From contig SUVU01000007.1 in assembly GCA_015061865.1 (NCBI GenBank), positions 1 through 39,890 of the forward strand: a stretch of DNA of 39,890 nt. The letters run 5' to 3'. The stretch is from Lentisphaerota bacterium (GTDB taxonomy: Bacteria; Verrucomicrobiota; Lentisphaeria; Victivallales; Victivallaceae). Positions 297-39,890 of this stretch are shown piece after piece. Position numbers and translations under genes: made by a program. The notes beneath the pieces are model-generated. The model searched no databases, was not told the DNA's origin, and saw nothing but the letters and a program-made list of their open reading frames with translations. How positions within the stretch are numbered: the first letter of the stretch is position 1; the number at the start of each line of letters is the position of its first letter.

Positions 297-1421
297 TCAG
301 GATTTCCGTTTAAAAATAAATGACTTCTGGATGATGAAACTGAAAAAGAACAGTCCGGTGTCGATCAATAATTTCCAGTATGGCAGCAGGGTTCTGCTGC
401 TGTGCTGTGCCAATTCAAACGTCGTCCAGTATGAAACGGAAAAAATCGCCGTTCCCAGGGCGAGGTATTTGAGCAGAGTAGTTCCCCACGGGGTGCGTTT
501 TTCCGGAGGGACGGCAAAGACCCAGTAGCGGTTGACCGGGTAGTTCCATGCCGCCGAAATTATCCGGGCAACCGCACATGATGCCAGCAGCGGCAGTGCC
601 AGCGAGGTGTGTTCATCGAAAATTGTTCCGGCAAAACATTTGATGAGAAACATAAACACCAGCACGTCGATCAGCGCCGAGGACATGCTTGAGAGCAGAA
701 AGCGGAATAATTGCTGCATCAGGTGCAGAAATATTACCCGGTAGATCAGTGCCGCATCTTTGATCGGGTGAAAATGGGTCCCGGCATTGTTGTCCAGATA
801 GACGGTTTCAATGGTGATCTCATTGAATTTGATATTTTTATCCCACGCCCGCAGCAGCATTTCGGTCTCAAATTCAAACCGGTTGCCGGGGATCGCCAGC
901 GAGAGTTCCATCACTTCAGCGGGGATCGCCCGCAAGCCGGTCTGGGTGTCGGCGATGCTCACTCCCGCCAGCAGCCGGAAAATCCCCCGGGTCAGAGTAT
1001 TGCCGAATTTACTTTTCCACGGCACATTGTCCTGATCGAAATTCCGGCAGCCCAGATGCAGAGAATCCGGCTCCCGGGCAAAATTTTCAGCGACATTGAT
1101 AATATCATTGAGGGTGTGCTGACCGTCATCATCGGTGGTGATGCCGCCCCGCCCGCCGGGGTGACGGGAGAGATAATCCATAAATGCCGTTTTGAGGGCG
1201 GCGCCTTTGCCGCGGTTGACTCCGTGGTGCAGGATATGACAGTAACTGCGCTGCTCCAGGGCGGTAAAAATTTCCCCGCATGAAGCGTCACTGCCGTCGT
1301 CAATGATGATGATTTCGGCAAAACCGGCATCGTGCAGCTGTGAAGTTATTTCCAGCAGCCGGTGATCCGGGTTCAAGGTCGGTATGATTACCGGGATTCG
1401 GTCAAGTTTCAGCTCTGCCAC
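297..1421 (-). CDS. GT2 family glycosyltransferase fused to a GtrA-like membrane domain
   Basis: A 374-residue protein with two parts. Residues about 8-225 are a GT-A fold family 2 glycosyltransferase of the dolichol/polyprenyl-phosphate sugar synthase type: nucleotide-sugar binding DDGSD at 41-45, NRGKGAAL at 69-76, the metal-binding DDDGQH at 97-102 and DTQTGLR at 158-164. Residues about 236-374 form several hydrophobic helices typical of GtrA/DPMS-like proteins, which flip or transfer lipid-linked sugars. The likely job is making and handling a polyprenyl-phosphate-linked sugar at the inner membrane for a surface glycan. The start is GTG at 1421, with AGGAT nine bases upstream. It lies 15 bases after the ABC ATPase gene and may be co-transcribed with it. 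The sugar donor cannot be told from sequence. Confidence 0.88.
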   Translation of the reverse strand: MAELKLDRIPVIIPTLNPDHRLLEITSQLHDAGFAEIIIIDDGSDASCGEIFTALEQRSYCHILHHGVNRGKGAALKTAFMDYLSRHPGGRGGITTDDDGQHTLNDIINVAENFAREPDSLHLGCRNFDQDNVPWKSKFGNTLTRGIFRLLAGVSIADTQTGLRAIPAEVMELSLAIPGNRFEFETEMLLRAWDKNIKFNEITIETVYLDNNAGTHFHPIKDAALIYRVIFLHLMQQLFRFLLSSMSSALIDVLVFMFLIKCFAGTIFDEHTSLALPLLASCAVARIISAAWNYPVNRYWVFAVPPEKRTPWGTTLLKYLALGTAIFSVSYWTTFELAQHSSRTLLPYWKLLIDTGLFFFSFIIQKSFIFKRKS

Positions 1422-2188: not shown

Positions 2189-4387
2189 TCACCGGTAGTA
2201 GTTCAGTTTCTTTTCGATCATCGCCATGCCGCCGGCGACGATAAAGTTGAATATGTAGTAAAATACCCCGGCAACCGCCAGCGGGAGCATGGTGGCGTGG
2301 GTGCTGGAAATATATTTGGCGATGGTAAACATTTCCAGTACCGACAGTGAAAATGCCAGCGAAGTATCTTTGACCAGCGTGATGACCTCATTGGTCATCG
2401 GCGGGACGATCCGTTTGACCACCTGCGGCAGAATGATCCGGAAAAAGGTCTGCTTTTCGCTGTAACCCAGCGCATACGCCGCTTCATACTGGCCCCGGGG
2501 GATCGAATTGATGCCCGCCCGGTAGATTTCAGCGAAATACGCCGCATAATTCAGCGCAAAACCGATGATTACTGCGGTGAAACTGTATTCAATGCCGCAG
2601 AATTCCAGATCGGACAGCTGGATATTGAACAGATAATAGGGGCAGAAAAACCACATCAGCAGCTGCAGCATCAGCGGCGTGCCGCGCATGATCGAGATGT
2701 AGACCCGGAAAATATTTCTGATCACGATATTGCCGGACATCCTGCCCAGTGCCACCAGCATCCCCAGCGGCAGAGCAAAAATCAAAGTCAGAATGAAAAT
2801 TTCCACCGAGATCAGCAGACCTTTGAGCAGGTCTTTGAGCATGATGCCCCAATTCATGGATTTTTTCACGGCATTATCGGTGGTGATCTTATTTTCGCTG
2901 TCGAAAACGAATTTGATATTGAATTCACGGTATTTGGCGGTGATCTCAGCCACGGTGCCGTCTTTCGCCATCTCGCCCAGTGTCAGCTGTACCTGATCTC
3001 TCAAAGCGGTGTTGCCGAGTTTGAAACCGATGCCGTATTTTTCCGAAATGACCGTTTCTGCAAGCATCCGGAAATCGCCTGAATTGATTTTGCTCTGTGC
3101 CACGCCGATATCCATGGCGACGGCATCGGCACCGCCGGCTTCCAGCTGCATGACAGCGTTATTGTAATCCGGGGCGACGATCAGTTTGGCGAGCGTTTTG
3201 CCGATGTCGGCACGGCTGCCGTCCTGCTGCAATGCTTTCTGTACCGGCGTATCAGTCTGTACGACGACCCGTTTGCCGGCGAGATCGGCAAGCTGTCGGA
3301 TCGGAGAATCGTTTTTGACCAGCACGACCTGCGAATTGTCCACATACGGGGCGCTCCAGGTGTATTTATCTTCTCTGCCGTTGATGGTAAAGCCGTTCCA
3401 GATGCAGTCGATCAGACCGCTGTTCAACTCGGTATCTTTGGCGTCCCAGTTGATCGGTTTGAGGACAAGTTTCCAATTATTGCGCCGGGCGACTTCGGCA
3501 GCAAGATCGAGGTCGAATCCGACATATTTGCCGTTTTCGATATAACCGTAGGGTTTGAAATTGGCGTCAAATCCGACGGTGAATTTTTTTTGCGGCTGAT
3601 TCCGGCTGTCAAGGATGAATTTGATGTTGAACTGCCGGTATTTCTCATTGATTTTCCGGACGGAGCCGTCGGCAGCCATTTCGATCAAAGTCTGCTGTAC
3701 CTGATCCCGCAGGGCGGTATTGCCGGTTTTGAAACCGATGCCGTACTTCTCGGAAATGACGATTTCGTCCAGGATCCGGTAGTTGCCGGAATCCATTTTG
3801 CTCTGTGCCACGCCGATATCCATGGCGACGGCATCGGCGCTGCCGGAATCCAGCTGCATGACGGCGTTATTGTAATCCGGGGCGACGATCAGTTTGGCGA
3901 GCGTTTTGCCGATGTCGGCACGTTTGCCGTCTTGCTGCAATGCTTTCTGTACCGGCGTATCGGTCTGCACGACGACCCGTTTGCCGGCAAGGTCGGCAAA
4001 TTTCCGGATGTCAGAATCTTTTTTGACCAGCACGACCTGCGAATTGTCCACATACGGGGCGCTCCAGGTGTATTTATCTTCCCTGCCGTTGATGGTAAAG
4101 CCGTTCCAGATGCAGTCGATCAGACCGCTTTGCAGTTCGGCATCTTTGGCATCCCAGTTGATCGGTTTGAGGACGAGTTCCCAATTATTGCGCCGGGCGA
4201 CTTCAGCGGCAAGGTCGAGGTCGAATCCGGTATATTTGCCGTTTTCCATGTAGCCGTAGGGTTTGAAATTGGCATCAAATCCGACGGTGAAAGTTTTCCG
4301 TTTGCTTGGAACGTCCTCTTTTTTGCACCCGAAAACTCCTGCCATCAGCACCGCCGCCAGCAAAATCCACAGTAATTTCCACTTCAT
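2189..4387 (-). CDS. ABC amino acid importer: two tandem substrate-binding domains fused to the permease
   Basis: A 732-residue fusion. Residues 1-20 are a hydrophobic signal followed by Cys21 (GVFGCKKED), a possible but non-ideal lipobox. Residues about 31-265 and 267-501 are two SBP_bac_3 domains, each with the ligand-binding Arg in TINGRED and the Asp in AVAMDIGVAQ. Residues about 515-732 are the HisM/GlnP-type permease with several membrane helices and the EAA loop (EAAYALGYSEKQTFFR). The architecture is like GlnP of Gram-positive GlnPQ importers. The two binding domains are nearly identical over their whole length, so the duplication is recent or kept alike by gene conversion. An ATG 12 bases upstream (4399) is possible, but AAAGG abuts it directly; from 4387 the spacing is 12. 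The substrate is probably a polar amino acid. Confidence 0.92.
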   Translation of the reverse strand: MKWKLLWILLAAVLMAGVFGCKKEDVPSKRKTFTVGFDANFKPYGYMENGKYTGFDLDLAAEVARRNNWELVLKPINWDAKDAELQSGLIDCIWNGFTINGREDKYTWSAPYVDNSQVVLVKKDSDIRKFADLAGKRVVVQTDTPVQKALQQDGKRADIGKTLAKLIVAPDYNNAVMQLDSGSADAVAMDIGVAQSKMDSGNYRILDEIVISEKYGIGFKTGNTALRDQVQQTLIEMAADGSVRKINEKYRQFNIKFILDSRNQPQKKFTVGFDANFKPYGYIENGKYVGFDLDLAAEVARRNNWKLVLKPINWDAKDTELNSGLIDCIWNGFTINGREDKYTWSAPYVDNSQVVLVKNDSPIRQLADLAGKRVVVQTDTPVQKALQQDGSRADIGKTLAKLIVAPDYNNAVMQLEAGGADAVAMDIGVAQSKINSGDFRMLAETVISEKYGIGFKLGNTALRDQVQLTLGEMAKDGTVAEITAKYREFNIKFVFDSENKITTDNAVKKSMNWGIMLKDLLKGLLISVEIFILTLIFALPLGMLVALGRMSGNIVIRNIFRVYISIMRGTPLMLQLLMWFFCPYYLFNIQLSDLEFCGIEYSFTAVIIGFALNYAAYFAEIYRAGINSIPRGQYEAAYALGYSEKQTFFRIILPQVVKRIVPPMTNEVITLVKDTSLAFSLSVLEMFTIAKYISSTHATMLPLAVAGVFYYIFNFIVAGGMAMIEKKLNYYR
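2883..4298. repeat. Tandem duplication, period 708 bp, encoding two substrate-binding domains
   Basis: Two direct copies, roughly 2883-3590 and 3591-4298, encode the two binding domains of the ABC fusion protein. Long stretches are identical at the DNA level with an exact 708-base offset; for example, the segment coding for VVVQTDTPVQKALQQDG occurs in both with few changes. The differences are concentrated near the ends of each domain. Boundaries are estimated from the protein alignment. Confidence 0.9.
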
Positions 4388-4468
4388 ATCCGGAAGCATC
4401 CTTTGATTAGATGAAATAATTATAGATGAAACTTACTTAATATGCCACTGCAAACGGTCAAATGCAAA

Positions 4469-17995: not shown

Positions 17996-18997
17996 ATGAG
18001 GTCATCTTATCCGACGTTGAAAGAGATAAGTGCGGAAGCCGGAGTTTCCATTGCTCTGGTGTCTGTGGTGCTGAACGGCAAAAAGGGACGCATAATGGCT
18101 TCAGAGCAGACCAAAGCGAAAATTCTGGCGGTGGCAAAGTCGCTGGGATATGAGCCGAACCGCAATGCCCGCGGGCTGCGGATGCAGCGCAGTTTTCTGA
18201 TCGGGGTGTCGGTATACAATATCAGCAGTTCTTTCGTGCCGGAAATTTTGAGCGGTATAGAGAGTGAATTTCTGCATACCAGTTACAGTATGCTGCTTGG
18301 GGCTCACCGCAACCATGAAGAATTGCGTGAGCGGCTGGAAGTTTTTCGCCGCCGTCGGGTGGATGGAGTGATTTTGATTTCGACAAATCATCGGGTTTGT
18401 GAAAAATATTTGGGGCAATTCCCGGATTTTCCGGCGGTTACGGTCGGTTGTGCGCCCGATTTGCCGCATTGCAGCAGCGTGATGAGCGACCGTCACGAGA
18501 TCGGTTCGATCGCCGCAGCGGCGCTGGTGGCGCGCGGTCACTGCAATATCGGGTATTTATGCAATGATTACGGCAACTGCGGCGGATTTCAGGATTATTT
18601 GAATCTGTACCGTCAGCAGCAGTGCAATTGTTTCAGATTGGAGTGCAAAAATTACTTTGACGTCGGCGTTGATGCTGCCGTGAAACTGCTGACGGCACAT
18701 CCGGAAATAAGTGCGGTTTTTGCCGACAGTGACGTGCTGGGGGCGGCGGCGATCCAGGCGGCAGTCAAACTCGGCAGACGGGTGCCGCAGGATCTGGCGG
18801 TATTGGGGGTGGACGACAGTATGTTGTGCCGGCTGACGGTGCCGCAGTTGAGTTCGATCAACCAGCCGAAACGGGAACAGGGCTCTGCCGCCGCCCGGAT
18901 TTTGATGCAGATGCTTGACGGCGGCAAAGTGGAACATATTGCTTTCCCCGGAAAACTGGTTTGCCGGGAAAGTTTGGGCGATATCAAATCATTATGA
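17996..18997 (+). CDS. LacI/GalR-family transcriptional regulator
   Basis: A 333-residue regulator. The N-terminal HTH reads TLKEISAEAGVSIALVSVVL (about residues 6-25), followed by the hinge region SLGYEPNRNARGLR. Residues about 62-330 form a periplasmic-binding-protein-like sugar sensor with FPAVTVGCAPDLPHCSSVMSD-type and LGVDDSMLCRLTVPQLSSINQ blocks. It begins with ATG at 17996 and is followed after 15 bases by the GH2 gene. Two palindromes around its own promoter suggest autoregulation. It probably controls the six-gene operon up to the terminator at 27835, releasing DNA when a sugar from the target glycan is bound. The effector is not known. Confidence 0.93.
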   Translation: MRSSYPTLKEISAEAGVSIALVSVVLNGKKGRIMASEQTKAKILAVAKSLGYEPNRNARGLRMQRSFLIGVSVYNISSSFVPEILSGIESEFLHTSYSMLLGAHRNHEELRERLEVFRRRRVDGVILISTNHRVCEKYLGQFPDFPAVTVGCAPDLPHCSSVMSDRHEIGSIAAAALVARGHCNIGYLCNDYGNCGGFQDYLNLYRQQQCNCFRLECKNYFDVGVDAAVKLLTAHPEISAVFADSDVLGAAAIQAAVKLGRRVPQDLAVLGVDDSMLCRLTVPQLSSINQPKREQGSAAARILMQMLDGGKVEHIAFPGKLVCRESLGDIKSL

Positions 18998-28051: not shown

Positions 28052-28975
28052 ATGAGTGACATTTTCACAACTGCAGATATTCCGCTTTTCTTTGAAAGAG
28101 AAAGGGGGCGCAGGGGAAAGGGAAAAACCTCTTTTCCCGTGAAAAGAAGTTTTTCCTCTTGCCCCGCAAGCCATTTCACTTTAATAGAACTGCTGGTGGT
28201 TATTGCCATTATCGCGATTCTGGCTGGCATACTGCTGCCGACGCTGCAGCAGGCACGCTCCCGGGGCAGGGCGACCAGCTGTACGAATAATATGAAACAG
28301 TTGGGCTTGGGGATCAGCACTTACGCTTCAGAGAACGATTCTTATGTACTGCCGGTCATCACGGCTGATACGACGTATGGTGCTGTCAACAATCGCAACT
28401 GGTTTGAATATGAAGCTCCGATCCGCAAGATCTGTCAATCCGGCACTACGGCGGTGAAATGGGGCAGCGGCGAGGGCAATATCATCAACTGTCCGGAGCG
28501 GGATCCGGAGCGCAGAATGGTCGATCCGCTGGGAAATTTCAAATACAGCGAAAGCGGCTCTACCAAAGAGGGTGCTTATGATCCGCGCAGTGCCTGTTAC
28601 GGAATGATCAGCAATATCATGGGCGGCGGCGGTTATGATGCGAACGGGAAATTGAAAAATGCCAATACCAAATTTTACCGTTTGAGCAAAATACTCCGTC
28701 CTTCGGGGCTTTCCGGGTTTGTAGACAGCGACAATGTCCAGTTTTTGTCCAGTAAATACCGCAACGGCATCTGGAACGGGGAAAAGGGGGATAATATCTC
28801 TTTAAGGCACAGTAAAGCTGCAAATGTGTGTATGCTGGACGGTCATGTGGAGTCGATCCGGGACAGTTTGTTTCACTCCTCCGTGGCGGCAGACAAATAT
28901 TCGGGCGTTCACCGTTACTTTAACGTGCGCACGACTCCGGGCAGAAAATTGTATGAGCCGGAATACAACCGGTAA
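28052..28975 (+). CDS. Prepilin-like protein (DUF1559 type) 2, leader enlarged by a translated repeat
   Basis: A 307-residue protein. ATG 28052 is chosen because AGAGGG lies just upstream and the promoter is at 27959-27987. The leader is unusually long, about 42 residues: MSDIFTTAD, then a translated 78-nt repeat ([16 protein letters not shown] and onward), then CPASH directly before [20 protein letters not shown]. The rest is a soluble pseudopilin-like domain with the C-terminal block [20 protein letters not shown]. If a prepilin peptidase cuts before the Phe, the repeat-encoded part would be removed and the mature protein would be normal. The -1 residue is His. It is followed by another prepilin-like gene after 52 bases. 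Confidence 0.85.
28078..28155 (+). repeat. Translated palindromic repeat element, copy 1
   Basis: A 78-nt sequence that recurs at 39813-39890 with 69 of 78 bases identical by hand count and no gaps. Both copies are read in the same frame, giving LFFERE[RK]GR[RG]GKGK. The 3' half is a hairpin: 28122-28136 pairs with 28141-28155 at 14 of 15 positions around loop CCGT. Between copies, two stem pairs change together (A-T to C-G and C-G to T-A). A small extra hairpin, CTTGC/GCAAG, follows at about 28157-28169 in this copy. Confidence 0.85.
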
Positions 28976-34836: not shown

Positions 34837-34906
34837 AAAATGATCGAATTTTCATCTTTTTTGAGACAAAAATCATGTTGTTTATCCGTTTTTGGGATAT
34901 ATTATA
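34837..34906 (+). promoter_or_regulatory. AraC-type promoter block, copy A (before the GH106-like gene)
   Basis: A 70-base block repeated at 37987-38056 with about 53 of 70 bases identical and no gaps. It contains TTCATCTTTTTTGA (34851) and ATCATGTTGTTT (34872), direct repeats 21 bases apart, then TTGGGATATATTATA with the -10 region at 34898-34906. The -35 position is a poor match to consensus and is covered by the second repeat, as in activator-dependent promoters. Confidence 0.75.
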
Positions 34907-34933
34907 AATGTGAAAGGATATGGGGACTCAATG

Positions 34934-37900
34934 ATGAAAACGATGATGAAAAATTTTGCCGCCCCGGGGGCGGAATTTCGCGGCGCACCGTTCTGGGCGT
35001 GGAACTCCGGATTGGATCGGGATGAATTGCTCCGGCAGATACATATTTTCAAAGCAATGGGAATGGGCGGATTTTTTATGCACTCCCGGGTTGGTTTGAA
35101 TACCCCTTATCTGGGCAAAGATTGGTTTGACTGTGTCAGAAGTTGTATTGCCGAAGCGGAAAAACTGGGAATGCGGGCGTATTTGTACGATGAAGACCGC
35201 TGGCCGTCCGGCAGTGCCGGCGGTATTGTGACTGCTGATGACCGTTATAAAAGCCGTTGGTGCGCCGTGGAAATATATTCCGGCGTGCGGCAGGCGCAAA
35301 AAGCAGATAACAGCAATACGCTGGTTTGGTATTCCGCAGTGGTTTCCGGCAGTTTTGAGCAGAATACGTTGAGAATAAAGTCCCCCCGCCGTTTGACATC
35401 TCCGGCAGATTTCAAACCCGGGCGCGACCGTAAATTACTGCGCTTTGCACTGCAGTTGATGGATAACCATGAGTGGTACAATGGCGGAACTTATCTGGAC
35501 ACCCTGAATCCCGAGGCGGTACAGAAATTTATTGACGTGACCCACGAAGCGTATTTCCGGGAGTGTGGCGCCGAATTCGGCAAAACTGTGCCGGCGATAT
35601 TTTCCGATGAACCGATGTTTTTTTCACCGCGTTCTTTGTCTACGGTGATAATTCCGTGGACGGAGACGCTGCCGGAGAAATTTCAGGCGGAGTATCATGC
35701 TGATATTCTGGAACACCTGCCGGAAATATGTTTTACTTCCGTCTGTAAAAAATCGGTGTGGCGTTTACGCTACCTTAATCTGATCACCCGGATGTTCTGT
35801 CAGGCATTCGCCGGTACGATCAGCGATTGGTGCAGTAAACACGGTTTGCAGATGACCGGTCATGTGATGAGCGAAGACCGTCTGAATCAGGCCATGATCG
35901 TCGGTGCCGCCATGCGTTTTTATGAGTATATGCAGTTCCCTGGGATCGACGTATTGACGGAGTGCTGGCGGGTTTTCAATACTGCCAAGCAATGTTCATC
36001 TGTGGCGCATCAGTTCGGGCGCAGACAGCGGCTTTCAGAAACCTACGGCTGTACCGGGTGGGATTTTCCATTTGCCGGACACAAAGCCGTAGGAGATTGG
36101 CAATATGCGCTTGGCATCAATTTCCGCTGTCAGCATCTGGCGTGGTATTCCGCTGAAAGTGAAGCCAAACGCGATTATCCTGCCAGTATTTCTTATCAAT
36201 CGCCGTGGTATGAAAAATATCCGGTGGTCGAGGATTATTTTGCCCGTCTCGGTGCGGTGATGAGTGAGGGGGAGGAACTCTGCGAATTGCTGGTGATCCA
36301 TCCGATCGAGTCGGCATGGATGGCGGTTGATCCGGCGTGGCTGGGGAAACATTGTTTTGTAAAAGAGAACCGCCGTTTTGCCAAATTGACCGATACGCTG
36401 TTGGCGCAGAAACTGGATTTTGACTTTGGCGATGAGGAGATCATTGCCCGCCACGGCAGGATAGAGGCGGGCAAAATTGCCGTCAGGTGTGCCGCTTACC
36501 GTGCGGTGCTGATCCCGGAATTGGAGACCATCCGGGGGACGACACTGGAATTGCTCCGGGAGTTTGCCGAGCAGGGTGGAACAGTGGTTTATCTGAATTC
36601 GGCACCGCAATATCTGGATGGGGAACGTTCAAAAGTTCCGGAACAGATTTTTACCGGATTTATCCGTGCCACGCTTGCGGAAGCGGTCAAACTGCTGGGC
36701 GGCAGTATCCGCCGGGTCGGGGTGACTGACCGGGCAGGGCGGCAGATCGCACCGGTGCTTGCCCGGTTGGCAGACACCGGCAGTGCGTATACGCTTTTTC
36801 TCTGCAATTACGGTGCAAAATTCAACGCCGATACCATTTTGAATGATTGTCCGGTCAGGGAGAGAAAGTTGAAATATCCTTATGCCCGGATCACCCTGAC
36901 CGTTCCGTTGCGGGGGGAAGTGTATGAATTGCATCCGCTGGACGGCAGTATCAGCAGGGTCGAGTACAGTTATAAAGACGGTCAATACTGTTTTGAAAGT
37001 GCGTTTGGCGAGCTGGAGTCACATCTGTTTCTGATCACCGCAGAAAATCCGGGGACGGTTGCGGATAAAAAAAGTGCTTCTTTCCGGAAAGCGGTAAAAC
37101 TGCCCGCTGAAAACTGGGATTATCAACTGGATGATCCCAATGTCCTGATCCTGGATCATGCCGACGGTGTTGCTGACGGGGAAGTTATCGGTAAAAACTG
37201 TTATATTCTGGAATTGGATAACACTTTGCGCCGGATGCTGGGGGGGATGCCGCGCGGCAGGACGATGTGCCAGCCCTGGACAAAACTGCATCAGGAGGTT
37301 GAAAAGAAACTGGATCTGACTTTGACTTATAGTTTTACTGTTGCAAACGTGCCGGAAACAGATTGCCTGCTGGCATTGGAGCATCCGGAATTTTACCGGA
37401 TCAAATTGAATGGTCAAATTCTGGATACCACCGTAAAAAGATGGTGGTTTGACCGGAGTTGTCAATGTATCGCCATTCCGGCTGAACTCCTGCTCGCCGG
37501 CTCCAATACGCTGGTACTTTATTCAGAGTACCACGAAAATCTGCCGGGACTTGAAGCGATGTTTCTGCTGGGCGATTTCGGCGTGACTGCTGATGCCGTG
37601 ACCGAGCTGCCCCGGAAATTGACCACGGGCGATTGGTGTGCGCAGGGATTGCCGTACTATGCCGGAAATGTGACATATTCCCGTGAGGTGGAGATTCCGG
37701 GCGGCGGCGCAGTTCTGGAATTCGCCGACTGGAGCGGCGTCCTGCTGGGCGTGCGGATCGCTGACGGTGCAGAGACTCTCCTGCCGTGGCCGCCGTACCG
37801 TTTGGAATTGCCCGCAGGGAAGTTCCGGCTGTATATCACGGTTTACGGCAGCCGCCGCAATGCGTTGGGGCCGTTTTTCGTCGAACGTCAGGCATGGGTC

Positions 37901-37993
37901 GGGCCGGATCAATTCCGGATGAAACGGCAAAATAAACGTCAGCTGATCCCCGGCGGGTTACTGGGTGAACCGGTGATAAAAATAATAAAATGA
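34934..37993 (+). CDS. GH106-like glycoside hydrolase (alpha-L-rhamnosidase type)
   Basis: A 1019-residue protein. The N-terminal TIM barrel begins APFWAWNSGLDRDELLRQI and continues GMGGFFMHSRVGLNTPYL and YLYDEDRWPSGSAGG, blocks typical of GH106 and related proteins. IFSDEPMFFSP and a later GHVMSEDRL carry candidate catalytic acids. A Rossmann-like domain (about 480-600) and C-terminal jelly rolls (about 800-1000, WAQG-type sugar-binding folds with EYHENLPGLEAMFLLGDFG) follow. There is no signal peptide. The frame is open up to a TTG at 34892, but that would place the start inside the -10 box; ATG 34934 has GGGGA seven bases upstream (ATG 34931 is also possible). It would release rhamnose from oligosaccharides in the cytoplasm. 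Confidence 0.85.
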   Translation: MKTMMKNFAAPGAEFRGAPFWAWNSGLDRDELLRQIHIFKAMGMGGFFMHSRVGLNTPYLGKDWFDCVRSCIAEAEKLGMRAYLYDEDRWPSGSAGGIVTADDRYKSRWCAVEIYSGVRQAQKADNSNTLVWYSAVVSGSFEQNTLRIKSPRRLTSPADFKPGRDRKLLRFALQLMDNHEWYNGGTYLDTLNPEAVQKFIDVTHEAYFRECGAEFGKTVPAIFSDEPMFFSPRSLSTVIIPWTETLPEKFQAEYHADILEHLPEICFTSVCKKSVWRLRYLNLITRMFCQAFAGTISDWCSKHGLQMTGHVMSEDRLNQAMIVGAAMRFYEYMQFPGIDVLTECWRVFNTAKQCSSVAHQFGRRQRLSETYGCTGWDFPFAGHKAVGDWQYALGINFRCQHLAWYSAESEAKRDYPASISYQSPWYEKYPVVEDYFARLGAVMSEGEELCELLVIHPIESAWMAVDPAWLGKHCFVKENRRFAKLTDTLLAQKLDFDFGDEEIIARHGRIEAGKIAVRCAAYRAVLIPELETIRGTTLELLREFAEQGGTVVYLNSAPQYLDGERSKVPEQIFTGFIRATLAEAVKLLGGSIRRVGVTDRAGRQIAPVLARLADTGSAYTLFLCNYGAKFNADTILNDCPVRERKLKYPYARITLTVPLRGEVYELHPLDGSISRVEYSYKDGQYCFESAFGELESHLFLITAENPGTVADKKSASFRKAVKLPAENWDYQLDDPNVLILDHADGVADGEVIGKNCYILELDNTLRRMLGGMPRGRTMCQPWTKLHQEVEKKLDLTLTYSFTVANVPETDCLLALEHPEFYRIKLNGQILDTTVKRWWFDRSCQCIAIPAELLLAGSNTLVLYSEYHENLPGLEAMFLLGDFGVTADAVTELPRKLTTGDWCAQGLPYYAGNVTYSREVEIPGGGAVLEFADWSGVLLGVRIADGAETLLPWPPYRLELPAGKFRLYITVYGSRRNALGPFFVERQAWVGPDQFRMKRQNKRQLIPGGLLGEPVIKIIK

Positions 37994-38056
37994 ATGTATT
38001 ATCATGTTTTTTGACGGAAAAATCATGTTTTTATGGATTTATTGGGCTATATTATA
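37987..38056 (+). promoter_or_regulatory. AraC-type promoter block, copy B (before the GH78-like gene)
   Basis: The same arrangement as at 34837-34906: ATCATGTTTTTTGA (38001) and ATCATGTTTTTA (38022), 21 bases apart, then TTGGGCTATATTATA with the -10 region at 38048-38056. Distances between all elements are identical in the two copies. The block begins inside the last codons of the GH106-like gene. Confidence 0.75.
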
Positions 38057-38090
38057 GTCGTATACCATGAATTTGTACAAGGGTTTTACT

Positions 38091-39650
38091 ATGGATTTCA
38101 ATGTGACAGGATTTGATTTGACTGCCTTGCCGCAGTTGCGTCAGATGTGGGCGGCGCAGGCGGAAAGTTTGCGCCATGAATTGGAGCATCAGGACGCTTA
38201 TCCCAAATATATCGTCAAAACTGTGGCGGATGCAGCGGCGTATCAGGGCGTCAGAGTGGAGAATGTCGGCAGTGCCGGTGAATTGAAAAATATGACGTTC
38301 CCATCTCATAGTTCGGTGATACTGGATTTCGGGGAGCATCATGTGGGATATTTTGAATTCACCATGCGCACCGCCACGGGGTATTGTGATTCCCCGGTAT
38401 CGTTGCGGCTGATGATGGCGGAACTGCCCTATGAATTGGAGTACACCAGCGATAAATTCACCGGCAAACTCAGTCAGGGGTGGATCCAGGAGGAGTATAT
38501 CAAAATCGACGTACTGCCCGGCACCATCCGGCTGCCGCGCCGTTATGCCTGCCGCTATTTGCGTATTGACATTATCGCCACACCGAATCAACTGATTTTC
38601 GATCAGATTTGTTTCGATACGGTTGCCGCCAGAAATTCCCTGCCGCAGGCTCCTGCCGGAGTGAGCGTATTGGATCAGGAACTTTATACTGCGGCATGCC
38701 GGACTTTGCGGGACTGTATGCAGACATGCTTTGAGGACGGCCCCAAACGTGACCGCCGTTTGTGGCTGGGGGACTTGTATTTGCAAGCCAAAAGCAATGC
38801 GGTCACCTACCGGGACTATCTGCTGGTGGAGCGTTCGATCTGTCTGCTTGCTGCCAATACCAATGATGCGGGGATGATCGCCGTATGTGCGTTTGAACAT
38901 CCCGGCATGAGGACGAATTGTTTTTATCCGGACTACATGATGCTGATGCCGGCATTGTTGCTGGATCACCTTGACGAATATGACCGCCGGGAGTTTGCTG
39001 CCGGATTCTATCCGCTGGCGATTCAGCAGCTCCGGGTGTTCAGGGGGATGATCGCCGGGGAAAACTGCACGTTGACCCGCTATCCGCAGTACCGCTATTT
39101 TATCGACCACTGTCCGCAGCTGGAGGTCGAAACGGCGGAGATCTGCGTGTATATTTTTGCACTGCGCAAAGCAGCGGAACTGGCACGCAAACTCGGATTT
39201 GACGGCGATATTGCCGCATTGACCGCCGAAGCGGATCGGTGGGAGCAGAATATCCGCAAATATGCGTTCGATCACGACAGCGGTCTGCTGGTTTCCGGTG
39301 CGGCGCGTCAGGTGTCGCAGGCGTCGCAGATCTGGGGCATCCTTTCCGGAGTGCTTTCGATAGACGAGGGCAAAGCGGCATTGACCAAAGTCAAAACTCT
39401 GCCCGGTGCGGTGCGTTCCCGCAATCCGTATTTGCTCACTTATCTGCTGGAAGTGTACGATATTTGCGGTATGAGTGAAGATTTGGATGAATTGCTGCAC
39501 AGTTATTGGGGCGGCATGTTGAAACTGGGGGCGGACACGTTTTGGGAGATGTTCGATCCGGATGATCTTTATCAGGAATTGTACGGTGATGCGTATTTAT
39601 TGAGCGCCTGCCATGCGTGGAGTTGTGCGCCGAGTTTGTATATCCGGTGA
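38091..39650 (+). CDS. GH78-like alpha-L-rhamnosidase
   Basis: A 519-residue inverting glycosidase with a short N-terminal beta-sandwich (about 40-190) and an (alpha/alpha)6 barrel. The GH78 active-site block is CFEDGPKRDRRLWLGD with E215, D216 and D221; the likely base Glu486 is in ADTFWEMFDP, and ACHAWSCAPSLYI closes the barrel as in known members. It is shorter than secreted GH78 enzymes because the extra beta domains are absent, and it has no signal peptide. The frame is open from 38067, but that ATG lies only 10 bases after the -10 box; ATG 38091 has AAGGG seven bases upstream. It shares its promoter block with the GH106-like gene, so the two act in the same rhamnose-polymer pathway. Confidence 0.92.
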   Translation: MDFNVTGFDLTALPQLRQMWAAQAESLRHELEHQDAYPKYIVKTVADAAAYQGVRVENVGSAGELKNMTFPSHSSVILDFGEHHVGYFEFTMRTATGYCDSPVSLRLMMAELPYELEYTSDKFTGKLSQGWIQEEYIKIDVLPGTIRLPRRYACRYLRIDIIATPNQLIFDQICFDTVAARNSLPQAPAGVSVLDQELYTAACRTLRDCMQTCFEDGPKRDRRLWLGDLYLQAKSNAVTYRDYLLVERSICLLAANTNDAGMIAVCAFEHPGMRTNCFYPDYMMLMPALLLDHLDEYDRREFAAGFYPLAIQQLRVFRGMIAGENCTLTRYPQYRYFIDHCPQLEVETAEICVYIFALRKAAELARKLGFDGDIAALTAEADRWEQNIRKYAFDHDSGLLVSGAARQVSQASQIWGILSGVLSIDEGKAALTKVKTLPGAVRSRNPYLLTYLLEVYDICGMSEDLDELLHSYWGGMLKLGADTFWEMFDPDDLYQELYGDAYLLSACHAWSCAPSLYIR

Positions 39651-39678: not shown

Positions 39679-39890
39679 ATGAATGTCAAAATATTATCGC
39701 GCCCGTATGGAGATAGCCGCAGGGCTGGCTGTTTCGCTTTCACGCTGATTGAATTATTGGTGGGCAAAACTTGTCAAATATGTGTTTTGCTGTGGTGTTT
39801 TTTCAAAAAAAGTATTTCGCTTTTCTTTGAAAGAGAAAAGGGGCGCGGGGGAAAGGGAAAACTCTCTTTTCACGGGAAAAGAAAGTTTTC
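39679..39890 (+). CDS. Prepilin-like protein 4, interrupted by a translated repeat and cut by the window end
   Basis: The first 70 codons of a gene with GGGAGGA nine bases before ATG 39679, 28 bases after the GH78-like stop. The leader MNVKILSRPYGDSRRAGCFA is followed by FTLIELLV, but the normal VIAIIAIL helix does not follow. Instead the frame reads GKTCQICVLLWCFFKKSIS and enters the repeat element (LFFEREKGRGGKGK and onward), still open at the last base. The break falls after TTATTGGTGG, within the most conserved DNA of the family. It may regain a second FTLIELLVV beyond the window, in which case the first is part of an extended leader; otherwise this is a disrupted gene. Confidence 0.75.
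   Translation, partial: MNVKILSRPYGDSRRAGCFAFTLIELLVGKTCQICVLLWCFFKKSISLFFEREKGRGGKGKLSFHGKRKF
39813..39890 (+). repeat. Translated palindromic repeat element, copy 2
   Basis: The counterpart of 28078-28155, in the same orientation relative to the gene and the same reading frame, but inserted after FTLIELLV rather than before it. The hairpin arms 39857-39871 and 39876-39890 pair at 14 of 15 positions around loop ACGG. The single mismatch (C-A) is at the same stem position as in copy 1. The element may continue past the window. Confidence 0.85.

Follow-up and report, generated by a model that had tools for sequence, protein, structure and literature searches.

The question raised by this locus is whether two similar DNA blocks, which lie upstream of a GH106-like gene and a GH78-like gene and next to a divergently transcribed gene for an AraC-family protein, could serve as operators through which that protein switches on each gene from its own promoter. 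We analyzed a stretch of 39,890 nucleotides, referred to here as the window, and compared it with related genomes. The sequence comparisons favor a reading in which an AraC-type dimer on both repeats would activate GH106 and GH78 separately, to which we assign a probability of roughly 0.85.

The blocks at 34837-34906 and 37987-38056 had been predicted to be about 76% identical without gaps, and an ungapped comparison gave 53 identical positions out of 70 (75.7%). This value is far above the maximum of 38/70 (mean 32.6) obtained from 1000 dinucleotide-preserving shuffles of both upstream regions, which rules out chance similarity of the blocks, and across the whole window the runner-up match to either block reached 36/70. 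The direct repeats of TCAT[CG]TT type described in the original prediction were also found, starting at 34852 and 34873 in the first block and at 38002 and 38023 in the second, exactly 21 bp apart in both. When block 1 was used as a blastn query against the genome, an assembly of 2,347,531 bases over 165 contigs with 76% completeness, the two blocks were the only matches. The proposed genome scan for the repeat pair gave the same picture, the two-box pattern with up to 3 mismatches being found only at the two window sites, both on contig C111, with no control matches. Nor was the block widespread before unrelated genes in scans of the window genome, the family, and the order, an outcome that the original prediction had listed as one that would refute it. 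High identity between the blocks could also be the mark of a recent duplication without function. We give this explanation hardly any credence, because the flanks of the blocks do not align, the differences between the blocks lie mostly outside the boxes, and the elements persist at unlinked places in G056, the nearest relative from the same genus, where the proteins are only 72-76% identical.

The GH106-like, GH78-like, and divergent AraC-family genes of the original prediction were all confirmed by Pfam matches (Table 1). The regulator scores above the cut-offs both for HTH_18 (PF12833; 76.7 bits, cut-off 33.6), placing its C-terminal part among the double HTH domains, and for AraC_binding (PF02311; 52.9 bits, cut-off 21.1), placing its N-terminal part among the sugar-type cupins. 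The GH106 protein belongs to its family at the Pfam cut-off, with a predicted role as an alpha-L-rhamnosidase; a phmmer search against PDB gave no match for it. For the GH78 protein, the matches were to Glyco_hydro_78_N (140.6 bits) and Bac_rhamnosid6H (48.4 bits), and phmmer produced an almost end-to-end alignment (E=2e-81) with KoRha (PDB 4xhc), a crystallized Klebsiella oxytoca alpha-rhamnosidase of family GH78 with two domains. The two proteins are identical over the FEDGPKRDRRLWLGD stretch, and the catalytic Asp222, Asp229, and His508 positions are kept, the KoRha residue numbers being counted back from the aligned chain end with a 20-residue tag assumed. In the sections of the KoRha report that we used (PMC4690510), these residues have the roles of a catalytic Asp and a sugar-binding Asp and His. 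The window protein resembles KoRha over nearly its full length and at all three residue positions. Together, the GH106 and GH78 enzymes are probably involved in removal of the plant sugar rhamnose. Inspection by eye revealed no obvious signal peptide in either protein, as would suit enzymes that cleave oligosaccharides after import. For GH78, the most likely start is the ATG at 38091 rather than position 38067, because homology to G056 begins there and AAGGG is found upstream; the leader from the originally predicted transcript start to this ATG would be about 28 nt.

Table 1. Coordinates of the regulator gene, the putative operators and promoters, and the two enzyme genes in the window.
Feature	Position	Strand	Details
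AraC/XylS-family regulator, 294 aa	33869-34753	-	N-terminal cupin (AraC_binding), C-terminal double HTH (HTH_18)
Operator 1, distal half-site	34841-34861	+	TGA-N8-TCATC-TTTTT; TGA 34841-34843, TCATC 34852-34856
Operator 1, proximal half-site	34862-34882	+	TGA-N8-TCATG-TTGTT; TCATG 34873-34877; overlies -35 position
GH106 promoter, predicted -10 region	34898-34906	+	TATATTATA; 25 bp past start of proximal TCATG
GH106-like enzyme, 1020 aa	34931-37993	+	PF17132 (Glyco_hydro_106), 54.2 bits, cut-off 29, residues 186-553
Operator 2, distal half-site	37991-38011	+	TGA-N8-TCATG-TTTTT; TCATG 38002-38006
Operator 2, proximal half-site	38012-38032	+	TGA-N8-TCATG-TTTTT; TCATG 38023-38027; overlies -35 position
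GH78 promoter, predicted -10 region	38048-38056	+	TATATTATA; distance equal to operator 1
Predicted GH78 alpha-L-rhamnosidase, small two-domain KoRha type, 519 aa	38091-39650	+	PF21104 + PF17389

Alignment of 11 sites from the window and its relatives defined the half-site as a bipartite unit, TGA-N8-TCAnG-TTTTT, repeated with a 21-bp period. The TGA at -11 to -9 from the first TCAnG is invariant (11/11 sites), indicating that the repeat unit is longer than originally stated, and the period itself is found at every aligned site (11/11). The TGA letters recur 21 bp on as TTGA, the A being present in 7 of the 9 sites counted. In operator 1 the proximal half-site begins 21 bp past the distal half-site, and in operator 2 the first bases of the distal half-site are the GH106 stop codon. 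Promoter features could be counted at 9 of the 11 sites, as the G116 site, which lies at a contig edge, keeps the repeat but has no -10 box, and the site on contig C79 of G107 has no clear one. Within these nine, the -10 hexamer begins downstream of the second TCAnG, at 25 bp from its start in 6 sites and at 26 bp in the other 3, and the best match to TTGACA at a spacing of 16-18 bp is at most 2/6 (9/9 sites), in agreement with the weak -35 beside which AraC activators are known to bind. A box had also been predicted at an equal distance in both blocks. Its TATATTATA part is indeed equidistant, but the TTGGG part is common to the window sites only; relatives keep just a -10-like hexamer, and TTGGGnTATATTATA was accordingly rejected as a conserved unit. 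In the window the hexamer can be read in registers that differ by 2-5 bp, TATTAT and TATAAA being equal-scoring alternatives. As judged from these alignments, the layout of the operator is the usual AraC/XylS plan, with bipartite half-sites of which the proximal one is positioned at a weak -35.

This organization suggests how the system may operate. The divergent AraC-family protein would bind each block as a dimer, with one HTH per box, and the promoter-proximal half-site would stand in for the missing -35. The bound regulator would then bring RNA polymerase to the -10 box, which lies 25-26 bp further downstream, such that GH106 and GH78 would be switched on from separate promoters. The probable trigger is binding of rhamnose or a rhamnose-containing oligosaccharide by the cupin domain, and the whole is very probably a small and ordinary sugar-sensing switch in a bacterial group that has received little study.

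A potential concern with this mechanism is the sign of the regulation, as the protein could instead be a repressor, or an activator that also represses its own gene, with the sugar releasing it from the DNA. A site overlapping a core promoter could repress, and in G118, G117, and G116 the operator is found about 30-50 bp from the start of the regulator gene, making autoregulation likely. We nevertheless consider this explanation improbable, because none of the nine promoters with a -10 box has a usable -35 and such promoters should be weak without an activator. In addition, consecutive half-sites beside the -35 represent the activator geometry of XylS, MekR, and MtlR, as described in the sections consulted of PMC4514859. 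One result of a simple promoter scan does count against activation at block 2, this being a promoter-like match on the opposite strand. The match (TGTACA-17-TATAAT, 10/12; minus strand, 38079-38051) is the best one overlapping block 2 and points back into GH106.

We also considered the relationship of the second block to the first. If GH106 and GH78 formed one operon transcribed from the first promoter, block 2 would be mostly redundant and merely boost expression. The GH106 stop is separated from the GH78 start at 38091 by only 97 bp, and a simple scan found no terminator-like site between the genes. The arrangement in G056 argues against this alternative. The family scan (78 genomes, original pattern, up to 3 mismatches) gave 8 matches versus 2 control matches, with 2 of the 8 being the window sites, 2 being in G056, and 4, all with three mismatches, being in other genomes. 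Among the family genomes G056 alone has, in the matches listed, a protein related to the regulator at more than 39% identity (72%). The gene for this ortholog and that for the GH78 ortholog (76%) are transcribed divergently, and an operator occupies the space between them. The GH106 ortholog is found on a separate contig, some 11 kb away from where that contig ends, and an operator of its own precedes the start of the gene by about 80 bp. The operator is thus present at 4/4 promoters of the window and G056 even though the genes are unlinked in G056. Because the G056 GH78 gene has an operator without GH106 upstream, because GH106 keeps one on another contig, and because every half-site element is retained in block 2, we regard a mostly redundant second block as unlikely. 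Separate activation remains the preferred reading, but given the short gap and the lack of a terminator-like site in the scan, transcription that continues from GH106 into GH78 may supplement that from the second promoter. The G056 GH106 ortholog (locus L042, 11029-12660, contig C5) is also shorter than its window counterpart, missing about 471 internal residues (window positions 454-924) in frame and with the operator kept, which represents either a real deletion or an assembly error.

To extend the comparison, we used the 137 genomes of the order. Orthologs of the regulator are present in 6 of these, including the window genome, with 46-72% identity in the five others; those at 46-56% are in G107 (two copies), G116, G117, and G118. 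A matrix was made from the 4 same-genus sites (window and G056) and tested on 87,003 bp surrounding the other-family orthologs. Five sites scored 24 or higher, compared to none for 300 column-shuffled matrices (maximum 23.0), and two further sites were accepted on position and spacing despite low scores (16.2 for G107 and 15.4 for G107 C79). A joint pattern allowing up to 3 mismatches gave 23 matches versus 3 control matches across the 137 genomes. All 9 sites with at most 2 mismatches are within the six ortholog-bearing genomes, with no others found. Of the 14 three-mismatch sites, one in G107 is divergent from its regulator, one in G072 is by a 31% paralog, suggesting that related regulators may read similar DNA, one in G081 (contig C78) has a weak HTH match nearby, and the other 11 are at loci without a match to the three proteins. 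Note that the joint pattern was drawn up after the other-family sites had been seen, so that the presence half of the 6/6 match is not independent while the absence half is, and the value of the pattern lies in its absences. The genome of locus L178, which carries a C-terminal fragment related to the regulator (67% over 54 aa) that by eye resembles the diverged G107 copies, has no site at up to 3 mismatches, which counts against the proposed reading.

At GH106/GH78 homologs located away from a regulator ortholog, the site was absent from 7/7 loci examined (best score 13.6), these being GH106 of G041, GH78 of G071, three GH106 loci of G107, and one locus each of G116 and G117; the idea of a site at every GH106/GH78 homolog was consequently rejected. 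Another transcription factor, for example of the LacI type, could also use the blocks, with the AraC-type neighbor being incidental. A LacI-type gene is present in the window (17996-18997). Such a role for it is very improbable, because the sites follow the AraC ortholog across two families and the second box reads TCAAG in the other family; a palindromic LacI-type site was also rejected, the boxes being direct repeats. The blocks, their geometry, their conservation, and their co-occurrence with orthologs of the regulator are established at the level of DNA sequence, and the cross-genome comparison strongly supports a regulon.

The comparative tests support the prediction of one regulator with two operators, one for each gene, but in other genomes the targets include genes other than rhamnosidases. 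GH106 and GH78 are the targets in the window and in G056. G117 has one site before GH78 and another before a DUF1559 pseudopilin-like gene and a gene for a 607-aa protein, G118 has one site before a DUF1559 gene, a DUF6259 gene, and GH78, and G107 has sites before a prepilin-motif gene with a beta-helix protein and before a DUF1559 gene. It is possible, with odds slightly short of even, that the regulator-operator pair stays constant across the two families while the targets change between GH78, GH106, and DUF1559-led operons, nearly always beside the regulator. If true, this would represent a portable sugar switch tuning enzymes and cell-surface proteins in Lentisphaeria. The analysis also connects rhamnosidases, together with the DUF1559 proteins of relatives, to what is probably a single sugar signal. 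Rhamnose isomerase is encoded in 6/6 ortholog-bearing genomes. The window-genome rhaA (C136:21003-22244), the only breakdown gene looked for, has no operator and is on a different contig from the genome's only two sites, indicating that this is not a rhamnose breakdown regulon of the RhaR/RhaS type.

The upstream regions of 27 regulators from the family that are paralogous to this one were also examined for direct repeats at spacings from 12 to 44 bp. The best-supported spacing was 21 bp, with a mean of 9.85 compared to 8.02 for shuffles (sd 0.19). At this spacing 8/27 paralogs had at least 11/14 identities, compared to 0-3 for each of the 32 other spacings. The rule that the regulator gene is preceded by a 21-bp repeat could be of use in assigning operators to the other AraC paralogs of the order. 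The second-highest mean (9.0) was found at 30 bp, and for the AraC paralogs L015, L016, L017, L019, L020, and L026 the strongest upstream direct repeat, or one close to the strongest, has this spacing rather than 21 bp; the 30-bp repeats are perhaps a second operator class.

The 21-bp direct repeat itself is already published for AraC-type rhamnose operators and XylS-type operators. According to the sections used of PMC3870299, such repeats are bound by AraC-type L-rhamnose regulators of Bacillales, Bacteroides, and Enterococcus. The system described here shares with these the regulator family, the 21-bp direct repeat, and sites before sugar-use genes, but those regulators act on the rhamnose breakdown pathway, whereas the sites of the window genome precede rhamnosidase-type genes only. 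Similarly, in the sections used of PMC4514859, the printed sites for XylS at Pm and MekR at PmekA sum to a 21-bp period, and these sites, like the arabinose half-sites of AraC, consist of two bipartite half-sites in succession, each for one monomer. The box letters found here (TGA-N8-TCAnG) differ from those of XylS, MekR, and AraC, as do the ligand and the genes. A search of the Lentisphaerae and rhamnosidase literature, judged by titles and abstract openings, found no publication on this regulator. The analysis provides a letter-level operator for a regulator from a lineage that has many AraC genes and is known here almost only from metagenome-assembled genomes.

Two other features of the window were noted. 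A single protein encoded at 2189-4399 contains solute-binding SBP_bac_3 domains (two stretches) and an ABC permease domain. Copies of a repeat are found at 28078-28189 and 39754-39890, with 29 blastn matches in the genome, several of these at contig ends. The copies adjoin the codons for the FTLIELLV prepilin motif of DUF1559-type genes; the element follows FTLIELLV in L216 and L218, and in L219 and at window position 28078 it reads into a 13-letter stretch. The repeat resembles an element that has inserted in frame, with copies of the motif on either side.
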